Origin: a virus
DNA: 24,275 nucleotides
IMG/VR virus record: IMGVR_UViG_3300048549_000921
Location: 1 to 24,275 of that record
Direction: 5' to 3' (one strand)
The notes beneath the pieces are model-generated. The model did no database searches. It had not been told where the DNA came from and saw nothing but the letters and a program-made list of their open reading frames with translations. Shown piece by piece: positions 6,108-24,162 of this stretch; position 1 is the stretch's first letter; each line of letters opens with the position of its first letter. The position numbers and the translations under genes were made by a program.

Positions 6108-7520
6108 TTATTCAGCACATCCAACACACATAGTGGGATCTGAATAATTGGGTAGGTCAGGGATCTTGTCTGAGTCCTCATCAATCTCATTCATATCGAA
6201 TAGGTCTCTGAAGTCTTCATCTAAGGCGTTGGATATATCATCTTTGGCTTGTGTGTTCTCCATTACCTGCAGTGAGTAATACATACTTGTCTGAGGTGAG
6301 TTCAGCCAATCTTGGATAAACTCTTCGGAGTAGATAAGAATATCGCTCCAAGTGTTGAAACTATAGCCATGACAGAGTCCAGTGGACTGGAGCATCAACA
6401 TGATGCCGTTAGCGACACGGTAGTAATCGTGCCAACCAACCATCTCTGCCGTTTCTACAAGACCGTAGTCATACTGAGAGATTCCAAAAGTAGAGCTGTC
6501 CCTATCAACGATGCGTCCGACCGGCGGTGCGATTTCGGGGGCGGTTGTATAGCCTGCTCTGTCTTGTTGCGAGTAGGAACATGAAGCAGTTGGTGCAATA
6601 GCAAAGGCACGATCCATTTTGGCGGCCTTAGCAACTGAAGCTGCTTGATTGATTCCTGCTTGAAGTGCTTTTACGATTTTAACTGCTGCTGGAGTCGCAT
6701 CAGAATCACCTTCTAGTGCATCAGCAAACTCTGCATACGTTACTTTTTCAAGTGATAGCAGGTTGGCTAAGCCAAGCATCCCAAGACCTACTTGCCTATC
6801 AAAATGAGGATGTAGGTATTGTCCTGTATTCTCAACACCAGTCCTACCATGAAGCTCGACAAGCTCCGTCATACCATCAACAAATGCCTGTGGTAGATCC
6901 TCTACCTTGCCTGCCGCGACGTTTATATGTTGCAACAAGCAAGTGGCTCTTGATTTAATAAATACTTCCAGACAAACGTTGGCATAAATTCTATTACCGT
7001 GCTGGTCATAACGAACCTTCGCTAGCCATACATCACCACGCATAATGCCTCGCAGCACTGCGTCACGTGTATCAGCATTAGCTACGTCCCACATCTCTTG
7101 GTTGAGATTGATGCAACGCTTAGCCCAAGGTAGTTCTGACCTAGGTGCCTCACAGAATTCAATAACATCTGCGTGACTTAAGTCAAGATGAAGCACGACA
7201 GCCCCATTTTTATATACACCCCCCCTACGTAAAATTTCATTAATCGTTGAATAGATTTTTCCAAAACTTACAGGACCTGATGCAACCAAGCCTTTACCGT
7301 TTTCTTCACCTTTAGGCCGTAGTTGAGATAAATGGATTGCAACACCTGCTCCATTTCTTAGGGCGTGTGAAGCAAAGCGCCAGGAGGCTTCGATACCTTC
7401 GGCACCCTCCATGCTGTCCATGACGTTAAAAATCGTGCAGCTGACTGGAAGTCGGCTTTCAGGGTTGTCTAGCCAGCTTTGAACACGGCCAGTACGTGCA
7501 ATAAAATTGTTAATTGACAT
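6108..7520 (-). CDS. nrdA: Ribonucleotide reductase large (catalytic) subunit, compact form
   Basis: This subunit reduces ribonucleotides to deoxyribonucleotides. It is 470 aa, far shorter than E. coli NrdA (about 760 aa), with no N-terminal ATP cone. Visible parts are LPVSC (Cys28, likely the first redox cysteine), RNGAGVAIHL, the GGVYKNGAVVLHLDLSHADV segment, the catalytic loop NVCLE (Asn181, Cys183, Glu185, matching NxCxE), IAPTASCS near residue 310, and a C-terminal CVGC pair for re-reduction by thioredoxin-like proteins. Lack of an ATP cone implies relaxed allosteric activity control, which suits a phage. It is followed by nrdB and preceded by mazG, whose stop overlaps its start by 11 bases. 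This architecture can be mistaken for a monomeric class II enzyme; the adjacent NrdB argues for class I. Confidence 0.9.
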   Translation of the reverse strand: MSINNFIARTGRVQSWLDNPESRLPVSCTIFNVMDSMEGAEGIEASWRFASHALRNGAGVAIHLSQLRPKGEENGKGLVASGPVSFGKIYSTINEILRRGGVYKNGAVVLHLDLSHADVIEFCEAPRSELPWAKRCINLNQEMWDVANADTRDAVLRGIMRGDVWLAKVRYDQHGNRIYANVCLEVFIKSRATCLLQHINVAAGKVEDLPQAFVDGMTELVELHGRTGVENTGQYLHPHFDRQVGLGMLGLANLLSLEKVTYAEFADALEGDSDATPAAVKIVKALQAGINQAASVAKAAKMDRAFAIAPTASCSYSQQDRAGYTTAPEIAPPVGRIVDRDSSTFGISQYDYGLVETAEMVGWHDYYRVANGIMLMLQSTGLCHGYSFNTWSDILIYSEEFIQDWLNSPQTSMYYSLQVMENTQAKDDISNALDEDFRDLFDMNEIDEDSDKIPDLPNYSDPTMCVGCAE

Positions 7521-19489: not shown

Positions 19490-20368
19490 TTATCCGAAAG
19501 AGCCCATAAGACCACCAGCAGAACTAGCAACTAGGTCAGTAAATGGCTTCTTGTAGGGCTGCTTAGTATCTGTAGAAGATCTGCTTGTTGGAGACTTAGG
19601 AGTAGGTTCAGGAGGTTTAGTGCTAGCTGGTGGCTTATTACTACTTACATTGGACATTAGATTACTAGCCCCTCCCGTGAAGTCATAGTTCTGAGCCAGT
19701 CTTGATTCAGTTGGACGTTTATCGAATGTATGAGGATTATTTTCAGCTGGATTGAATGCTCCACTAGAACTTGGATTTTTAAAATTGACAGCACGTTCTT
19801 TAGCATCTTTAATGTGAGAACTCTCTGTGATAGATCCTTCAGGCTTCTTAGCTACAGGCTCAGCTTTAGGTGCTGGCTGATCAGCAACAGGCTCTGCTTT
19901 ATTCCAGTTTTCTGATAGATTCCATACATCTTTTTGAGTGAGGTCACCTTCTTTCATGAAGTCAGCATTACCAGCTTTATAGTTCTCTATTTCAGAGACA
20001 AAGCCCATAAGCTCATTAGAATTTTTGATGTTGAATTTACCTGTAGCTTGAACAGCATTCTCCCAAATACCGCGATTACTAGAACTGCGCCGGATATTTT
20101 CAATGCCGGTTGTGTCTCCATAATTTCCATCAGCCCAGTAATTACTAAACGCATTGTCTCTAAGCGGGTCATCCGCCTTGCCTTGACTAAGCTGACCAGG
20201 TCCTAGTCCTAATGTCTTAAGTCTTCTGTAATCTTCGGTACTTAAGTCTTTAAAGGCTTCTGTGTTAAATCCTTTGTCCTCAGGAGACCAGTCATTCCAT
20301 TTTGTGCCATGAGCTGATTTGGCTTGGTTGTCTGCCGCTCTTTTTTCTATTCTCCATTGGTCAGGCAT
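19490..20368 (-). CDS. Array paralogue 5, subgroup A, 292 aa
   Basis: Last-transcribed member of the five-gene array. The N-terminal domain has WNDWSPEDKGFNTEAFKDLS (about 25-44), then a Pro/Ala linker, the shared ESSHIKDAKERAVNF box (about 181-195), a FDKRPTESRLAQNYDFTGGA block, a Ser/Pro/Thr-rich stretch, and a C-terminal TDTKQPYKKPFTDLVASSAG. No cysteine, no membrane helix, no signal peptide. The last two blocks are nearly the same in paralogue 4, showing a recent duplication. I recognise no family. Low complexity, hydrophilic and Cys-free features suit an ejected, virion-associated or scaffold-like protein, but this is inference. Confidence 0.7.
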   Translation of the reverse strand: MPDQWRIEKRAADNQAKSAHGTKWNDWSPEDKGFNTEAFKDLSTEDYRRLKTLGLGPGQLSQGKADDPLRDNAFSNYWADGNYGDTTGIENIRRSSSNRGIWENAVQATGKFNIKNSNELMGFVSEIENYKAGNADFMKEGDLTQKDVWNLSENWNKAEPVADQPAPKAEPVAKKPEGSITESSHIKDAKERAVNFKNPSSSGAFNPAENNPHTFDKRPTESRLAQNYDFTGGASNLMSNVSSNKPPASTKPPEPTPKSPTSRSSTDTKQPYKKPFTDLVASSAGGLMGSFG

Positions 20369-20453
20369 GGCTATTATTAAATGAATTCATATACATCAAT
20401 TATATACAATACTGTGCTCAGCCTCTAGTGTTAGTCTATGTATTGACTGCTAG

Positions 20454-21323
20454 TTAAGAGTAATTGTTAGCAACTAGGTCAGTAAACGATTTCTTATAAG
20501 GCTGCTTAGTATCTGTGGAGGAGCTGCTTGTTGAAGGCTCAGGATCAGATTCAGGAGGTTTAGTGTTAGTTGTTGAATTATTACGAGTCACATTGGACAT
20601 TAGATTACTAGCCCCTCCTGTGAAGTCATAGTCTGTAGCAAGATTTGATTCAGTTGGACGTTTATCAAATGAATCAGGATTATGTGCAGTTGGATTGAAG
20701 GCTTGACTAGAACTTGGGTTTTTAAAATTGCTGGCACGTTCTTTAGCATCTGCTAGATGAGAACTCTCTGTAATAGGTCCTGAATTAGTTTCAGGCTTCT
20801 TAGCTACAGGCTGAGCTTTAGGTGCTGGCGCTTGTTCTTGTTGAGGCTGCTCACGCATCAACATGATGGCTTCTGGAGTCCAGCCATCTTTCAAGAAATC
20901 ACCATGTTTAGCTTTTACAGAATCAGCCCTATCAAGGAATTGATTTAACTGGTCTTTGTCTCCAATATTAGAAAGTCCCGTTTCCCAGACAGCCTGTTGT
21001 ACATTGCCACGGTTATGGGCTCTCTTTGATCCTTTTTCGCCGCCCCAATATGTGTGGTAGATTCCGCCCGCTTCGCCATGCACTCCATCACCCCATTGAC
21101 CTGTGTTAAAGGCAGTGGTCGCTCTCACCTTATCTCCTCTAAGTATAGAAGGACCTACTTGATGATCACGCAGTCGTTGACGTGTGGCATCATCTACGTC
21201 TTTAAATACATCTGGATTAAATCCACCTCTGGTATCTTTCCATGCGTCGTCTTTAGACCAAGCAGCGTTGTGATCTCTTACTCTCCGCATTCTCGCGTTT
21301 GATTGCTGTGACATAGTCGACAT
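20454..21323 (-). CDS. Array paralogue 4, subgroup A, 289 aa
   Basis: Close relative of paralogue 5. It shares the N-terminal WSKDDAWKDTRGGFNPDVFKD form, ESSHLADAKERASNFKNPSS (about 188-207), FDKRPTESNLATDYDFTGGA and TDTKQPYKKSFTDLVANN. The middle differs (GEAGGIYHTYWGGEKGSKRA). It is Cys-free and hydrophilic. The ATG at 21323 has AGGACATTGAT just upstream, a reasonable ribosome-binding site; a second ATG three codons later is possible. An AT-rich hairpin (21336-21360) lies immediately upstream. Function unknown. Confidence 0.7.
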   Translation of the reverse strand: MSTMSQQSNARMRRVRDHNAAWSKDDAWKDTRGGFNPDVFKDVDDATRQRLRDHQVGPSILRGDKVRATTAFNTGQWGDGVHGEAGGIYHTYWGGEKGSKRAHNRGNVQQAVWETGLSNIGDKDQLNQFLDRADSVKAKHGDFLKDGWTPEAIMLMREQPQQEQAPAPKAQPVAKKPETNSGPITESSHLADAKERASNFKNPSSSQAFNPTAHNPDSFDKRPTESNLATDYDFTGGASNLMSNVTRNNSTTNTKPPESDPEPSTSSSSTDTKQPYKKSFTDLVANNYS

Positions 21324-21335
21324 ATCAATGTCCTG

Positions 21336-21360
21336 TAATTGAAGAATATATCTTCAATTA
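21336..21360 (-). repeat. AT-rich hairpin between array genes
   Basis: A perfect 10-bp stem TAATTGAAGA/TCTTCAATTA with a 5-base loop lies between the stop of paralogue 3 and the start of paralogue 4. It resembles the hairpin at 22077-22099. Confidence 0.65.
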
Positions 21361-21366
21361 TACTTA

Positions 21367-22071
21367 TTAAACGCTCAACATATTCTGACCGCTAGCATTC
21401 TTGAGGAACTCGTCTTCTTCTTGTTGTGATTGTTGCTGTGAAGGCGTTTCAGGTACGTCTCCTCCCTGCTGATTGAGAGCAGTTTGATTGAACGCATTAG
21501 TCAGGTTAGATTCTGCAGGAGAGAAGTTATCCGCAAAGTCTTTTTTGTAGGCATTTAGCACAGCATTACTGTCTGGAGAATTATCATTCCGAGCGTCATA
21601 AACACCGTCAGATGGGTTAAAGTTTTCATGAGCACGTTCGCCACTCCAGCTCTTATTCTCCCACGCATTTACTCGGTCCCTAGCTTCTGCTAGGTGAGAG
21701 CTATCTACAGTAGATTTATTAGGTGGGGTCTCAAGAGAAGTATCAGGCTCAGGAGTTGTATCAGTTGGAGGTGCTGAATCGGTAGAGTCTGGACGTGGAT
21801 ATGTTTTAAAGATTCCGTAATTATCTCTGTCACTGTTAGCATCATATTCATCATGCAGGGAATCGAAGTCATTGGTGTAAGTTGTCAATGAATTGAGCTT
21901 ACTTGGCTTCTCACCCTTACCTAGAGATCTGACTTCGTACCCATCTTTTAATTTCCAAGCTGAGTCGTGGTGACTTTTAGGTCCTTTTTCCTCATCAAAG
22001 TACTTAGCCCTATCGGAGTCACTGATATTAGGACCGTCGCCCCACACTTGTTGTGGTAGATAGGTAGCCAT
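21367..22071 (-). CDS. Array paralogue 3, subgroup B, 234 aa
   Basis: It starts MATYLPQQVWGDGPNISDSD and has a short variable N-terminal domain, a Pro/Asp/Ser/Thr linker, the shared DSSHLAEARDRVNAWENKSW box (about 123-142), NAVLNAYKKDFADNFSPAES (about 170-189), and a C-terminal NAFNQTALNQQ...DEFLKNASGQNMLSV segment. The tail matches paralogue 2, while WENKSWSGERA matches paralogue 1, so modules are shuffled. Cys-free and hydrophilic. The hairpin at 22077-22099 precedes the start codon by 6 bases. Function unknown. Confidence 0.7.
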   Translation of the reverse strand: MATYLPQQVWGDGPNISDSDRAKYFDEEKGPKSHHDSAWKLKDGYEVRSLGKGEKPSKLNSLTTYTNDFDSLHDEYDANSDRDNYGIFKTYPRPDSTDSAPPTDTTPEPDTSLETPPNKSTVDSSHLAEARDRVNAWENKSWSGERAHENFNPSDGVYDARNDNSPDSNAVLNAYKKDFADNFSPAESNLTNAFNQTALNQQGGDVPETPSQQQSQQEEDEFLKNASGQNMLSV

Positions 22072-22076
22072 ATTGA

Positions 22077-22099
22077 TAATTAAAGCAATACTTTAATTA
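22077..22099 (-). repeat. AT-rich hairpin at the start of paralogue 3
   Basis: A perfect 9-bp stem TAATTAAAG/CTTTAATTA with a 5-base loop ends 6 bases from the ATG at 22071. It could stop or slow translation initiation, or mark an RNA processing site. Confidence 0.65.
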
Positions 22100-22105
22100 T
22101 AGTTA

Positions 22106-22885
22106 TTAAGCATTCAGTAGATTCTGACCTCTAGCATTTCTGAGGAACTCATCTTCCTGTTGTGACTGTGCTTGTGATGGCATATCAGGTACGTCTTCCT
22201 TCTGCTGATTAAGAGCAGTTTGAGTGAACGCATTATATAAGTTAGATCCGTTGGAAGAGTAATTTTTAGCAAAGTCTTCCTTATAAGCATTTAGTACAGC
22301 ATTGCTTTCTGGAGTGTTAGGTCCAGTGTACTTATTCCGCGCATCGTAACTTTTATCCTGTGTATTTGCAGTTGGAGCTGCATTCAAAGCTTGTTCATTA
22401 GATGGGCTAAAGGGTTCTTTAGGTGTAGTGAGCCTACTTTGTACACGCTCTTTAGCTTCTGCTAGATGATCGCTATCTACAACAGGTTCAGCAGGTTCAG
22501 CAGGTTTGGGCATACCATCCATATGTTTTTGAAACAAATGACTGAGAACTCTACCGCTTTTTAGATCACTATCGTTACTTTCCATACCAAGTTCAGACAT
22601 AGCCTGATTTACTTGATCTTTCTGTGCTCCTGTGTAGTATTCATCCTCATTCATTTTGGATAGGTCACGAGTTTGACGACCCATATAAAAGCCTTCGTCG
22701 TTTTGCATCGATTCAGGAAGATGGTCGCCTCTCAGGAATAGATCCTTGTCCTCCTCAGAGAAGTGATCTCTTGACTCTGTCCATTTTTCAGGACGACTCC
22801 GATCAAGTCCCCAGCTATTAAAAAAATCCTGGGCTCTAGCTTTATACTCGTCCGAACGAGAATCAGTGACCGCATATTCAGCCAT
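22106..22885 (-). CDS. Array paralogue 2, subgroup B, 259 aa
   Basis: It begins MAEYAVTDSRSDEYKARAQD with an extended charged N-terminal domain (WTESRDHFSEEDKDLFLRGD), then PKPAEPAEP, the DSDHLAEAKERVQSRL box (about 138-153), FSPSNEQALNA, NAVLNAYKEDFAKNYSSNGS and the C-terminal NAFTQTALNQQKED...DEFLRNARGQNLLNA. FSPSNEQAL is shared with paralogue 1. It is Cys-free. A strong Shine-Dalgarno, GAGGG, lies six bases before the ATG. Function unknown; subgroup B identity is clear from the C-terminal block. Confidence 0.7.
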   Translation of the reverse strand: MAEYAVTDSRSDEYKARAQDFFNSWGLDRSRPEKWTESRDHFSEEDKDLFLRGDHLPESMQNDEGFYMGRQTRDLSKMNEDEYYTGAQKDQVNQAMSELGMESNDSDLKSGRVLSHLFQKHMDGMPKPAEPAEPVVDSDHLAEAKERVQSRLTTPKEPFSPSNEQALNAAPTANTQDKSYDARNKYTGPNTPESNAVLNAYKEDFAKNYSSNGSNLYNAFTQTALNQQKEDVPDMPSQAQSQQEDEFLRNARGQNLLNA

Positions 22886-22899
22886 TAAAATCCCTCTTT

Positions 22900-22927
22900 A
22901 ACAATAGATATAACTATTCTATTAAAT
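22900..22927. repeat. 28-bp repeat, copy 1
   Basis: This exactly matches 23496-23523. It contains an AATAG/CTATT hairpin. It lies between the paralogue 1 stop and the paralogue 2 start. Confidence 0.75.
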
Positions 22928-23488
22928 TCAAGTAGGATTTACTTTAGTCATGTCTAATCCGTCTGGAGAGAAGTTTTTAGCAAATTCTTTTTTATAAGCA
23001 TTTAGTACAGCATTGTCATCTGGTTTGTTAAGTCCAGTGGATTCAGGACGAGCATCATAAGTATCCTTCGTTGGAGCTGTAGTTGCATCGAAACTCAAAG
23101 CTTGTTCATTAGATGGACTGAAGATTTCGTTAGCACGTTCACCAGACCAGCTTTTGTTCTCCCACTCCTTTACACGTTCTTTAGCCTCTGCTAGATGAGA
23201 ACTGTCTTTAACAGGGTCCTCTTTGGGAGCAGGTGCAAGTGCAGGTGCTTCTTTAGGTTGTTTTTGATCAGCTAATTTCTGGCGATACCAATCACCGACA
23301 GCTTTAACTTCTGATTGGGAATCAACTTTGCCATCAGTTACTTCTTCGGCACCTTGGTTCCAAGCACGTTCGTTAGCTCCGGGGATTTCGCTTTTAAGTG
23401 CGTCCTCCCAGTCACCTTTAATACGTCCTGTTGAGTATTTGTCAGTCTTCTCAAAGTGAAGAGAGCCTTCAGGATTCCAGGTAGCCAT
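22928..23488 (-). CDS. Array paralogue 1, subgroup B, shortened, 186 aa
   Basis: First-transcribed array member. From the ATG at 23488 it reads MATWNPEGSLHFEKTDKYST; a TTG at 23500 is also in frame. It has an N-terminal charged domain, an Ala/Pro linker (APALAPAPKEDP), the DSSHLAEAKERVKEWENKSW box (about 109-128), FSPSNEQAL, and NAVLNAYKKEFAKNFSPDGL, then stops at MTKVNPT. It lacks the C-terminal NAFNQTALNQQ...GQN segment of paralogues 2 and 3, so it is truncated or an ancestral short form. Cys-free; function unknown. The leader is one copy of the 28-bp repeat. Confidence 0.7.
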   Translation of the reverse strand: MATWNPEGSLHFEKTDKYSTGRIKGDWEDALKSEIPGANERAWNQGAEEVTDGKVDSQSEVKAVGDWYRQKLADQKQPKEAPALAPAPKEDPVKDSSHLAEAKERVKEWENKSWSGERANEIFSPSNEQALSFDATTAPTKDTYDARPESTGLNKPDDNAVLNAYKKEFAKNFSPDGLDMTKVNPT

Positions 23489-23495
23489 GAACTTG

Positions 23496-23523
23496 AACAA
23501 TAGATATAACTATTCTATTAAAT
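23496..23523. repeat. 28-bp repeat, copy 2
   Basis: Identical to 22900-22927. It overlaps the stop codon of the 65-aa ORF and lies directly upstream of the paralogue 1 start, so each copy sits in the leader of an array gene. Confidence 0.75.
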
Positions 23524-23707
23524 CTAAGTGATACTCTCGTTTAAGTACGAGTACTGCGCTCTGCATAGTACTTTTACTCCACCCGGCTGCATATGCAGCG
23601 GTTTTGATAGTAGGGCTATCGGATTGGTAATCAATACCATTAATGACTTCGATTGCTTGTTCTAGCTGCGTGGTTAGACACTCAACTTGCGAAATTGAAA
23701 GTGGCAT
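23510..23707 (-). CDS. Hypothetical protein, 65 aa
   Basis: Not recognised. It reads MPLSISQVECLTTQLEQAIE and contains TAAYAAGWSKSTMQSAVLVL, a possible helix-turn-helix-like region (residues about 36-55). It lies between the tmRNA terminator and the array, so it might be a regulator of the array, but this is weak. Confidence 0.55.
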   Translation of the reverse strand: MPLSISQVECLTTQLEQAIEVINGIDYQSDSPTIKTAAYAAGWSKSTMQSAVLVLKREYHLDLIE

Positions 23708-23730
23708 TAGGGATAATTATTAGGCATCGA

Positions 23731-23755
23731 CGAAATAAAGCCCCCGACCGGGGGC
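23731..23755 (-). terminator. Strong terminator after the tmRNA
   Basis: On the minus strand, stem GCCCCCG/CGGGGGC (7 bp, 2-base loop, 23740-23755) is followed by TTTATTT. It would end the tRNA-tmRNA transcript. Confidence 0.85.
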
Positions 23756-23761
23756 ATTGTC

Positions 23762-23935
23762 GTCACGGGTAGTTAGCTCAGGCGGCTACGGCTACGCGCT
23801 CAAAACGTACGATGTTGTTGAGAGTTATTCTCAATTAGCCTATGCAGTCGAGAACCAGTGCATCCCCGCAGTGGAGATGTGCGGAATCGAACCGCAGTCC
23901 TACATAAACTCAGCCTTTTAGGGTCGTACTGAGGA
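23762..23935 (-). ncRNA. ssrA: Permuted (two-piece) tmRNA, compact
   Basis: tmRNA rescues stalled ribosomes and tags the nascent peptide. The minus strand shows the permuted order: a T arm (TGCGGTTCGATTCCGCA, ending at 23880), acceptor 3' strand CATCTCC and discriminator A (23879-23872), a four-base spacer CTGC, then acceptor 5' strand GGGGATG (23867-23861), a D-loop-like GGTTCTCGAC, and the tag frame at 23819-23778: NNIVRFERVAVAA, stop TGA. Acceptor strands pair over 7 bp. A P2-like helix TGCATAGGCT/AGTTTATGTA joins the pieces. No CCA is encoded. The stretch from the acceptor strand to the tag is only about 48 bases, leaving room for little more than one hairpin (TTGAGA/TCTCAA). The tag resembles marine cyanobacterial ones (from memory). 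Ends are approximate. Confidence 0.9.
23778..23819 (-). other. tmRNA tag reading frame
   Basis: The frame encodes NNIVRFERVAVAA then TGA. The C-terminal VAVAA fits ClpXP-type degradation tags. The codon just before it is CTC (23822-23820); the usual cyanobacterial resume codon would be an Ala codon, so the resume position (CTC or AAC) is uncertain. Confidence 0.85.
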
Positions 23936-23937
23936 CA

Positions 23938-24011
23938 CGACAATGACGGGAATCGAACCCGCAACCTCCTGCGTGACAGGCAGGCGCTCTAACCGATTGA
24001 GCTACATCGTC
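23938..24011 (-). tRNA. tRNA-Asp (anticodon GTC)
   Basis: A complete 74-base cloverleaf. The acceptor stem is GACGATG/CATTGTC with one G-U pair, the D arm is GCTC/GAGC, the anticodon stem CCTGC/GCAGG encloses CTGTCAC (anticodon GTC), and the T arm is GCGGG TTCGAAT CCCGT. The 3' CCA is not encoded. It is followed on the minus strand directly by the tmRNA acceptor piece and then the terminator, so they are probably one transcript. Confidence 0.95.
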
Positions 24012-24162
24012 AAGTAGGTCCTATTCCGTATTCAAAGTCAGATAATTTCTTAGAAGCTTTATCAGCTTTCTTGATAATCTTCTGTGCTTGTTCACGGGTA
24101 GTGCAAAGTTCCGCAGCCATTAAGGCTTTGGTTAACTTCTTCTGTTGTTTAGCTGGATTCAT
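24010..24162 (-). CDS. Small hypothetical protein, 50 aa
   Basis: Not recognised. It reads MNPAKQQKKLTKALMAAELC and continues basic and helical (TREQAQKIIKKADKASKKLS). The stop overlaps the first base of tRNA-Asp by two bases and the start overlaps the upstream gene end (ATGA). The basic helices would suit nucleic acid binding, but nothing specific is visible. Confidence 0.55.
   Translation of the reverse strand: MNPAKQQKKLTKALMAAELCTTREQAQKIIKKADKASKKLSDFEYGIGPT

Follow-up and report, generated by a model that had tools for sequence, protein, structure and literature searches.

Within the window, a linear IMG/VR contig of 24,275 bases, the minus strand at 23735-23936 carries what we read, with a probability of about 0.78, as a complete, compact, two-piece (permuted) cyanophage tmRNA gene shaped by selection for trans-translation inside infected cells. 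The anatomy of the RNA, its base pairing and the coding constraint on its tag are apparent in the sequence itself; active trans-translation by this compact tmRNA is what we infer. The preliminary description had placed the unit at 23762-23935. The locus was right, but the leader hairpin, the P2 helix and the terminator make the unit larger (Table 1).

The genes of the window include PsbA, TalC, ThyX, RNR and PurC, and the nearest relatives of its RNR are found in T7-like Synechococcus and Prochlorococcus podoviruses, with a best identity of 54%. On the basis of this gene set and the closest RNR relatives, the window is assigned to a cyanophage. A second contig (L009/L360) contains the same sequence, with 99.99% identity across 15.6 kb of the window, and a search for close DNA relatives in cultured phages gave nothing beyond a 58-nt match to S-CRM01. 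Transcription of the locus runs leftwards, from a tRNA-Asp through the tmRNA, which lies directly downstream of it, to a terminator-like hairpin. The tRNA-Asp, on the same strand and immediately upstream, is probably co-transcribed with the tmRNA. A pairing between the tail (ACGACAAUG) and the 3′ strand of tRNA-Asp (CAUUGUCGU) was seen in the window, was absent in the related contig L213 and was dropped.

Table 1. Features of the tmRNA locus, listed in the direction of transcription.
Feature	Positions	Strand	Basis or remarks
tRNA-Asp (GUC)	23937..24012	-	ARAGORN; RF00005, 74.2 bits; CCA not encoded
Leader hairpin CCUCAG...CUGAG, separating tRNA-Asp from the acceptor piece	23909..23934	-	Sequence; a hairpin of different sequence is present at this place in relatives too
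P2 helix, 5′ strand UUUAUGUAG	23900..23908	-	Pairs with 23839-23847
T arm UGCGG-UUCGAUU-CCGCA, canonical T loop UUCGAUU	23880..23896	-	RF04321 alignment; 5/5 stem pairs covary
Acceptor 3′ strand CAUCUCC and discriminator A, CCA not encoded	23872..23879	-	RF04321 alignment; sequence; covariation
Intervening segment (spacer) CUGC, four bases	23868..23871	-	RF04321 alignment; sequence
Acceptor 5′ strand GGGGAUG	23861..23867	-	RF04321 alignment; sequence; covariation
D-loop-like segment CACUGGUUCUCGA (CACUGGUUCUCGAC), containing the GG typical of a normal tRNA elbow	23848..23860	-	RF04321 alignment
P2 helix, 3′ strand CUGCAUAGG	23839..23847	-	Pairs with 23900-23908
Hairpin UUGAGA-AUAAC-UCUCAA at the PK1 position; 3′ arm overlaps the first tag codons	23818..23834	-	Sequence, folding, relatives
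AUAA-CU, position of the AUAG/AUAA tetramer, just 5′ of the resume codon	23823..23828	-	Relatives; PMC4236655
Tag frame CUC AAC AAC AUC GUA CGU UUU GAG CGC GUA GCC GUA GCC GCC UGA (LNNIVRFERVAVAA, stop)	23778..23822	-	Comparison with relatives
Hairpin resembling helix 5 that encloses the stop codon, GUAG-CCG-UAGC-[CGCCUGA]-GCUA-A-CUAC	23769..23795	-	Compensated in L213, L192 and L230
Tail motif CCGUGACGA	23760..23768	-	CGUGACGA common to L213, L192 and L230
Terminator-like hairpin GCCCCCGGUCGGGGGC, then UUUAU	23735..23755	-	Sequence, folding

The elements listed in the preliminary description, namely the T arm, the acceptor 3′ strand, a four-base spacer, the acceptor 5′ strand, the D-loop and a frame ending in VAVAA-UGA, are all present on the minus strand. 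The tRNA-like domain is circularly permuted, with the T arm and 3′ acceptor strand preceding the 5′ acceptor strand and D-loop. The spacer is expected to be removed during processing; in relatives it is mostly 5-6 nt long, reaching 64 nt in L213 and 86 nt in L230. The two pieces are joined by the P2 helix of nine pairs, seven of which show changes on both sides across the 14 relatives. The third acceptor pair is G-U (G3-U70) in 14 of 14 members. G3-U70 is the alanine identity pair.

Viral contigs were scanned for relatives with patterns describing the permuted acceptor/T-arm core, the linker hairpin and the spacing from D-loop to tag, and the hits were then checked for an acceptor stem of seven pairs. 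Many matches of the two hairpin/tag patterns were chance hits in unrelated genes, and matches lacking an acceptor stem were set aside. The hairpin-pattern scan is biased to like hairpins; L006, L007, L112 and L089 were found by the core alone. In all, 22 distinct compact tmRNAs were found, one of them in a Synechococcus genome (L067). The compact class recurs in unrelated viral contigs and in one Synechococcus prophage. For covariation, 14 members were aligned with the spacer excised, and P1, P2, the T stem and the linker hairpin were scored. Paired cells make up 94.8% of this alignment, against 76.1% in shuffles and 42-53% in slid controls, and both partners have changed in 17 pairs, where shuffles give 8.6; neither observed value is reached in any of 500 shuffles. 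L213 derives from a different kind of phage, its 53-kb contig matching just one of 22 window proteins (RlpA, 44%) and bearing at least 22 tRNAs. The tRNA-like body and an identical tag nevertheless recur in it despite the nearly unrelated proteins, which indicates that the compact tmRNA either moves between phages or is old. L067 lies in Synechococcus genome G146 (C1:917000-936900), within a T7-like prophage with a single-subunit RNA polymerase and an integrase; its compact tmRNA, with the tag ANNIKRTERTLAIAA, is present alongside the host's own tmRNA. Among 50,697 records there was no isolated phage of this class, and G146 with its prophage comes closest to one.

The linker from UCGAC to the resume codon is 24 nt in the window versus 52-53 nt in cyanobacterial host tmRNAs, in agreement with the earlier remark that there is no room for a full pseudoknot. 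The P2 3′ strand and a short hairpin occupy these 24 nt. The PK1 pseudoknot is missing, with a hairpin of 5-6 bp in its place, and no further pseudoknot region is left in the compact tmRNA of the window. The same linker hairpin occurs in 12 of the 14 members. L230 and L067 lack the UUGAGA-AUAAC-UCUCAA sequence, though they are members of the compact class, and have a hairpin of different sequence in the same place (GUUUGC-AGAC-GCGAAC in L230, a shorter one in L067). Because the hairpin hardly varies in 12 relatives, it is without covariation support, and single-sequence folding of the region is unremarkable (z -1.4). In E. coli tmRNA, a hairpin can stand in for PK1 with tagging retained, according to work cited in PMC4236655, and this laboratory result has a natural counterpart here. 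The RF04321 model spans the tRNA domain, and PK1 is not part of it (PMC11915505).

The tag frame ends in VAVAA with its stop codon at 23778, as originally described, but it needs one more residue, a leucine. The most likely first codon of the tag is CUC (23820-23822), one codon ahead of the start first proposed, and the tag would then be LNNIVRFERVAVAA. This resume codon is assigned because of the conserved position of the AUAA tetramer and the AAC second codon. In PMC4236655, tmRNAs are reported to prefer AUAG or AUAA upstream of the resume codon, and both the tetramer at -6 to -3 and the AAC second codon agree with the tmRNA requirements given there. CUC (Leu) is the resume codon in 12 of the 14 members (the window and 11 relatives); an Ala codon is found only in L230 and L067. 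An Ala resume codon is the usual rule in tmRNAs, by which CUC is unusual, and it is a usual, not a defining, feature of tmRNA. Across the members the tag has evolved mostly by synonymous changes. The window and L213 encode an identical 14-residue tag with four codon differences, all third-position and synonymous, and the tags of L184 and L187 differ at five positions, each a third position, with no residue changed. If the codon positions are taken as equal, the probability that nine of nine changes fall at third positions is, calculated by hand, (1/3)^9 or about 5e-5.

The stop codon is enclosed in a helix that was predicted by RNAalifold and refined by hand into two forms. In standard tmRNAs, helix H5/hp5 stands at this position. 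The hairpin of L213 reads GUUG-CCG-UCGC-[CGCCUGA]-GCGA-A-CAAC, the outer helix is kept with other letters in L192 and L230, and in the freshwater cluster the helix is continuous, with eight pairs. Two of the four tag changes between the window and L213 (GTA to GTT and GTA to GTC) are compensated beyond the stop codon, restoring the pairing, so that both the peptide and the hairpin are preserved. The C-terminal VAA of the tag in the window and L213 resembles, in sequence, the host degron PVAA. A C-terminal VA(A/V) is kept across relatives, and the VAV end found in the freshwater cluster may be a weaker degron. On the 3′ side of the hairpin, CGUGACGA is kept between the unrelated phages L213, L192 and L230, and in these as well as in the window a second in-frame UGA lies inside this motif.

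The conserved tag bears on the alternative that survives best, in which the compact RNA would be charged and would bind SmpB or stalled ribosomes, blocking or diverting the host tmRNA with no tagging of proteins. A phage RNA without pseudoknots and with a non-alanine resume codon would suit such a decoy, and PMC11915505 reports that a tag-less tmRNA form of mycobacteriophage DS6A inhibits endogenous tmRNA in E. coli. For a decoy, however, a tag would be superfluous, yet the relatives retain the frame, the stop codon, the upstream AUAA tetramer and the C-terminal VA(A/V), and their codons change synonymously at third positions; we regard this role as unlikely.

Much less probable still is a decaying, phage-acquired copy of a host tmRNA. 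Phages do pick up tmRNA fragments, and this RNA is much shorter than host tmRNAs and barely found by RF04321. The decay in homologous phages that would be expected was not seen: the acceptor stem, P2, the T stem and the tag frame are kept, all helices with compensatory changes, G3-U70 is invariant, the tag is under coding constraint, and the same reduced form is present in many unrelated contigs. Covariation and the synonymous tag changes contradict this reading, and it was rejected. To a comparably small degree, the locus could be a phage attachment site for integration into the host tmRNA gene, since tmRNA genes are frequent integration sites, and the compact copy L067 lies about 1 kb from the integrase gene of its T7-like prophage. 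The window, however, contains no integrase, and an attachment site keeps an identical core, whereas the compact copy departs from the host gene over its whole length, in tag, linker and spacer alike; in the prophage genome, moreover, the host's own tmRNA is 1 Mb away.

Covariance models agree with the earlier proposal of a phage-borne, reduced, permuted tmRNA with its own tag. Neither outcome that the preliminary description named as refuting it, the lack of a tmRNA-model hit or decay of tag frame and acceptor stem in homologous phages, was observed. RF04321 (tmRNA_permuted) matches with 48.6 bits (E 6e-7, cut-off 47), covering only the tRNA-like part (23835-23906), and the tag half gives a separate 14-bit match in the Rfam scan. 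In a cmscan of the region, beta_tmRNA scores 45.5 bits, under its cut-off of 84, and cyano_tmRNA (RF01851) gives no match up to E 1, overlapping same-clan matches being hidden in this search. ARAGORN calls a tmRNA at 23419-23961 with the tag AAYAAGWSKST..., which is wrong and runs into a neighbouring 65-aa frame. A second covariance model was built from 13 relatives, with the window left out and the L213 and L230 spacers shortened. It matches the window at full length (23758-23908, all 152 positions) with 121.1 bits and an E-value, rough as these are, of about 4e-29; the next-best match within the window scores 8.3 bits. Across 292 cyanobacterial genomes, its single strong hit is to the prophage copy L067, itself a model member, and ordinary host cyanobacterial tmRNAs score 46-66 bits. 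Chance resemblance or a mis-called tRNA fragment, which the RF04321 score just 1.6 bits above cut-off and the silent cyano_tmRNA model might suggest, is given negligible weight against a 121-bit match from a model built without the window and 17 covarying pairs. Annotation of phage tmRNAs is thus incomplete: ARAGORN gives the window gene a wrong tag, its Rfam score hardly clears the threshold, and its close variant L203 is missed.

In the preferred reading of a working trans-translation RNA, the transcript would start with tRNA-Asp or run across it, the 4-nt spacer would be cut out by RNase P and 3′ processing of the host, and the host would add CCA, giving the acceptor piece the 3′ end CUCCACCA. 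The two pieces would be held together by the acceptor stem and P2 and charged by host AlaRS. No SmpB gene was found in 11 phage contigs, which are fragments, nor in the complete S-CRM01, while control genomes gave SmpB matches; for this reason host SmpB is probably used. Host SmpB would bring the compact tmRNA to ribosomes stalled on broken mRNA, and translation would resume at CUC after AUAACU, adding Ala-LNNIVRFERVAVAA. Tagged peptides would end in NNIVRFERVAVAA, and tagged proteins would be degraded via the host ClpXP route. A likely use would be to maintain a supply of free ribosomes as host and viral mRNAs undergo cleavage in infection or, alternatively, to substitute for a depleted or attacked host tmRNA. 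That the virus benefits through redirected ribosomes or degradation, as the preliminary description put it, is a guess.

Phage permuted tmRNAs are already known; of the 53 two-piece forms that ARAGORN detected in a 2021 set, 50 come from marine or aquatic phages (PMC9004378), and a 2025 database lists 79 phage tmRNAs (PMC11915505). The closest likeness is to the permuted tmRNA of the marine Synechococcus/Prochlorococcus type (RF04321, formerly cyano_tmRNA RF01851), which shares the order of parts, the acceptor stem with G3-U70, P2, the T arm, the D-loop, the tag start NNIVRF, the stop-codon helix and the lack of an encoded CCA. In this host type the linker is 52-53 nt with PK1 and the tag is 16 aa (ANNIVRFSRQAAPVAA), whereas the window has 24 nt and a 14-aa tag with Leu first, a short tail, a 4-nt spacer and a compact-model score of 121 versus 46-66 bits. 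The tmRNAs of the cultured cyanophages S-CRM01, S-CAM1, S-CAM3, S-SSM7 and AG-345-P14 are likewise phage-borne and permuted, with a spacer that is also short (S-CRM01 and S-SSM7, 5-6 nt) and a host-like tag (ANNVVKFRRTAVTSLVAAL in S-CRM01), but their linker is about 40 nt or more, their resume codon is Ala, and the GAGA-UCUC hairpin is absent. The records of these five phages (S-CRM01, L001 2960-3180; the other four, L177, L178, L179 and L180) are unannotated at the tmRNA or have hypothetical proteins there.

Similar to the window RNA, the two-piece tmRNA described from marine phages and the methylophage Melnitz (PMC9004378) is permuted and resides in a marine phage, with no need for an SmpB of its own shown; it differs in being of the alphaproteobacterial type and under a glutamine riboswitch, and no pseudoknot-free form is described in the accessible part of that report. 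The E. coli construct cited in PMC4236655 has its engineered hairpin at the same position and retains tagging, but it is laboratory-made, in one piece and with the other pseudoknots kept, whereas the window RNA is natural and has none. The DS6A tmRNA (PMC11915505) is also a reduced phage tmRNA, without a tag frame, whereas the tag of the window is conserved. No description of a pseudoknot-free class, of a Leu resume codon or of the UUGAGA-AUAAC-UCUCAA hairpin was found in the accessible open-access literature, a scope in which absence is weak evidence.

With odds slightly better than even, these RNAs may form a distinct, naturally occurring class of two-piece tmRNA that is free of pseudoknots, is about half as long as the host RNA, occurs in unrelated cyanophages and tags with a Leu-initiated peptide via host SmpB, and whose tRNA elbow (T-loop and D-loop) is swappable as a unit for a GGCAGUR/AG form that is widespread in phage tmRNAs and almost absent from host genomes. 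Such a class would represent a minimal tagging tmRNA as it occurs in nature, with the pseudoknots lost under selection for small size but charging, frame choice and tag kept, and would make directly testable why phages carry their own ribosome-rescue RNA.

In many phage permuted tmRNAs (L203, L230, L243-L321 and others), a T-loop GGCAGUR inside CGG/CCG replaces UUCRANN. NAG replaces the D-loop GG in 36 of 37 GGCAGUR tmRNAs, as if the tRNA elbow were swapped as a unit, a contrast that is one-sided in that GG served in part to select the UUCRANN set. L203, which has the GGCAGUR elbow, is otherwise almost identical to compact tmRNAs with the normal elbow. The motif was seen in 105 viral contigs, one of 369 alphaproteobacterial genomes and none of 292 cyanobacterial genomes.

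Elsewhere in the window, the RNR large-subunit frame at 6108-7520 (470 aa) corresponds to no more than the last two thirds, the C-terminal part, of a usual subunit. At 19490-23500, five consecutive proteins, for three of which a Pfam search gave no match, have in common a C-terminal repeat region (DSSHLAEAKERV..., FSPSN..., YDARN...) that is 45-55% alike.
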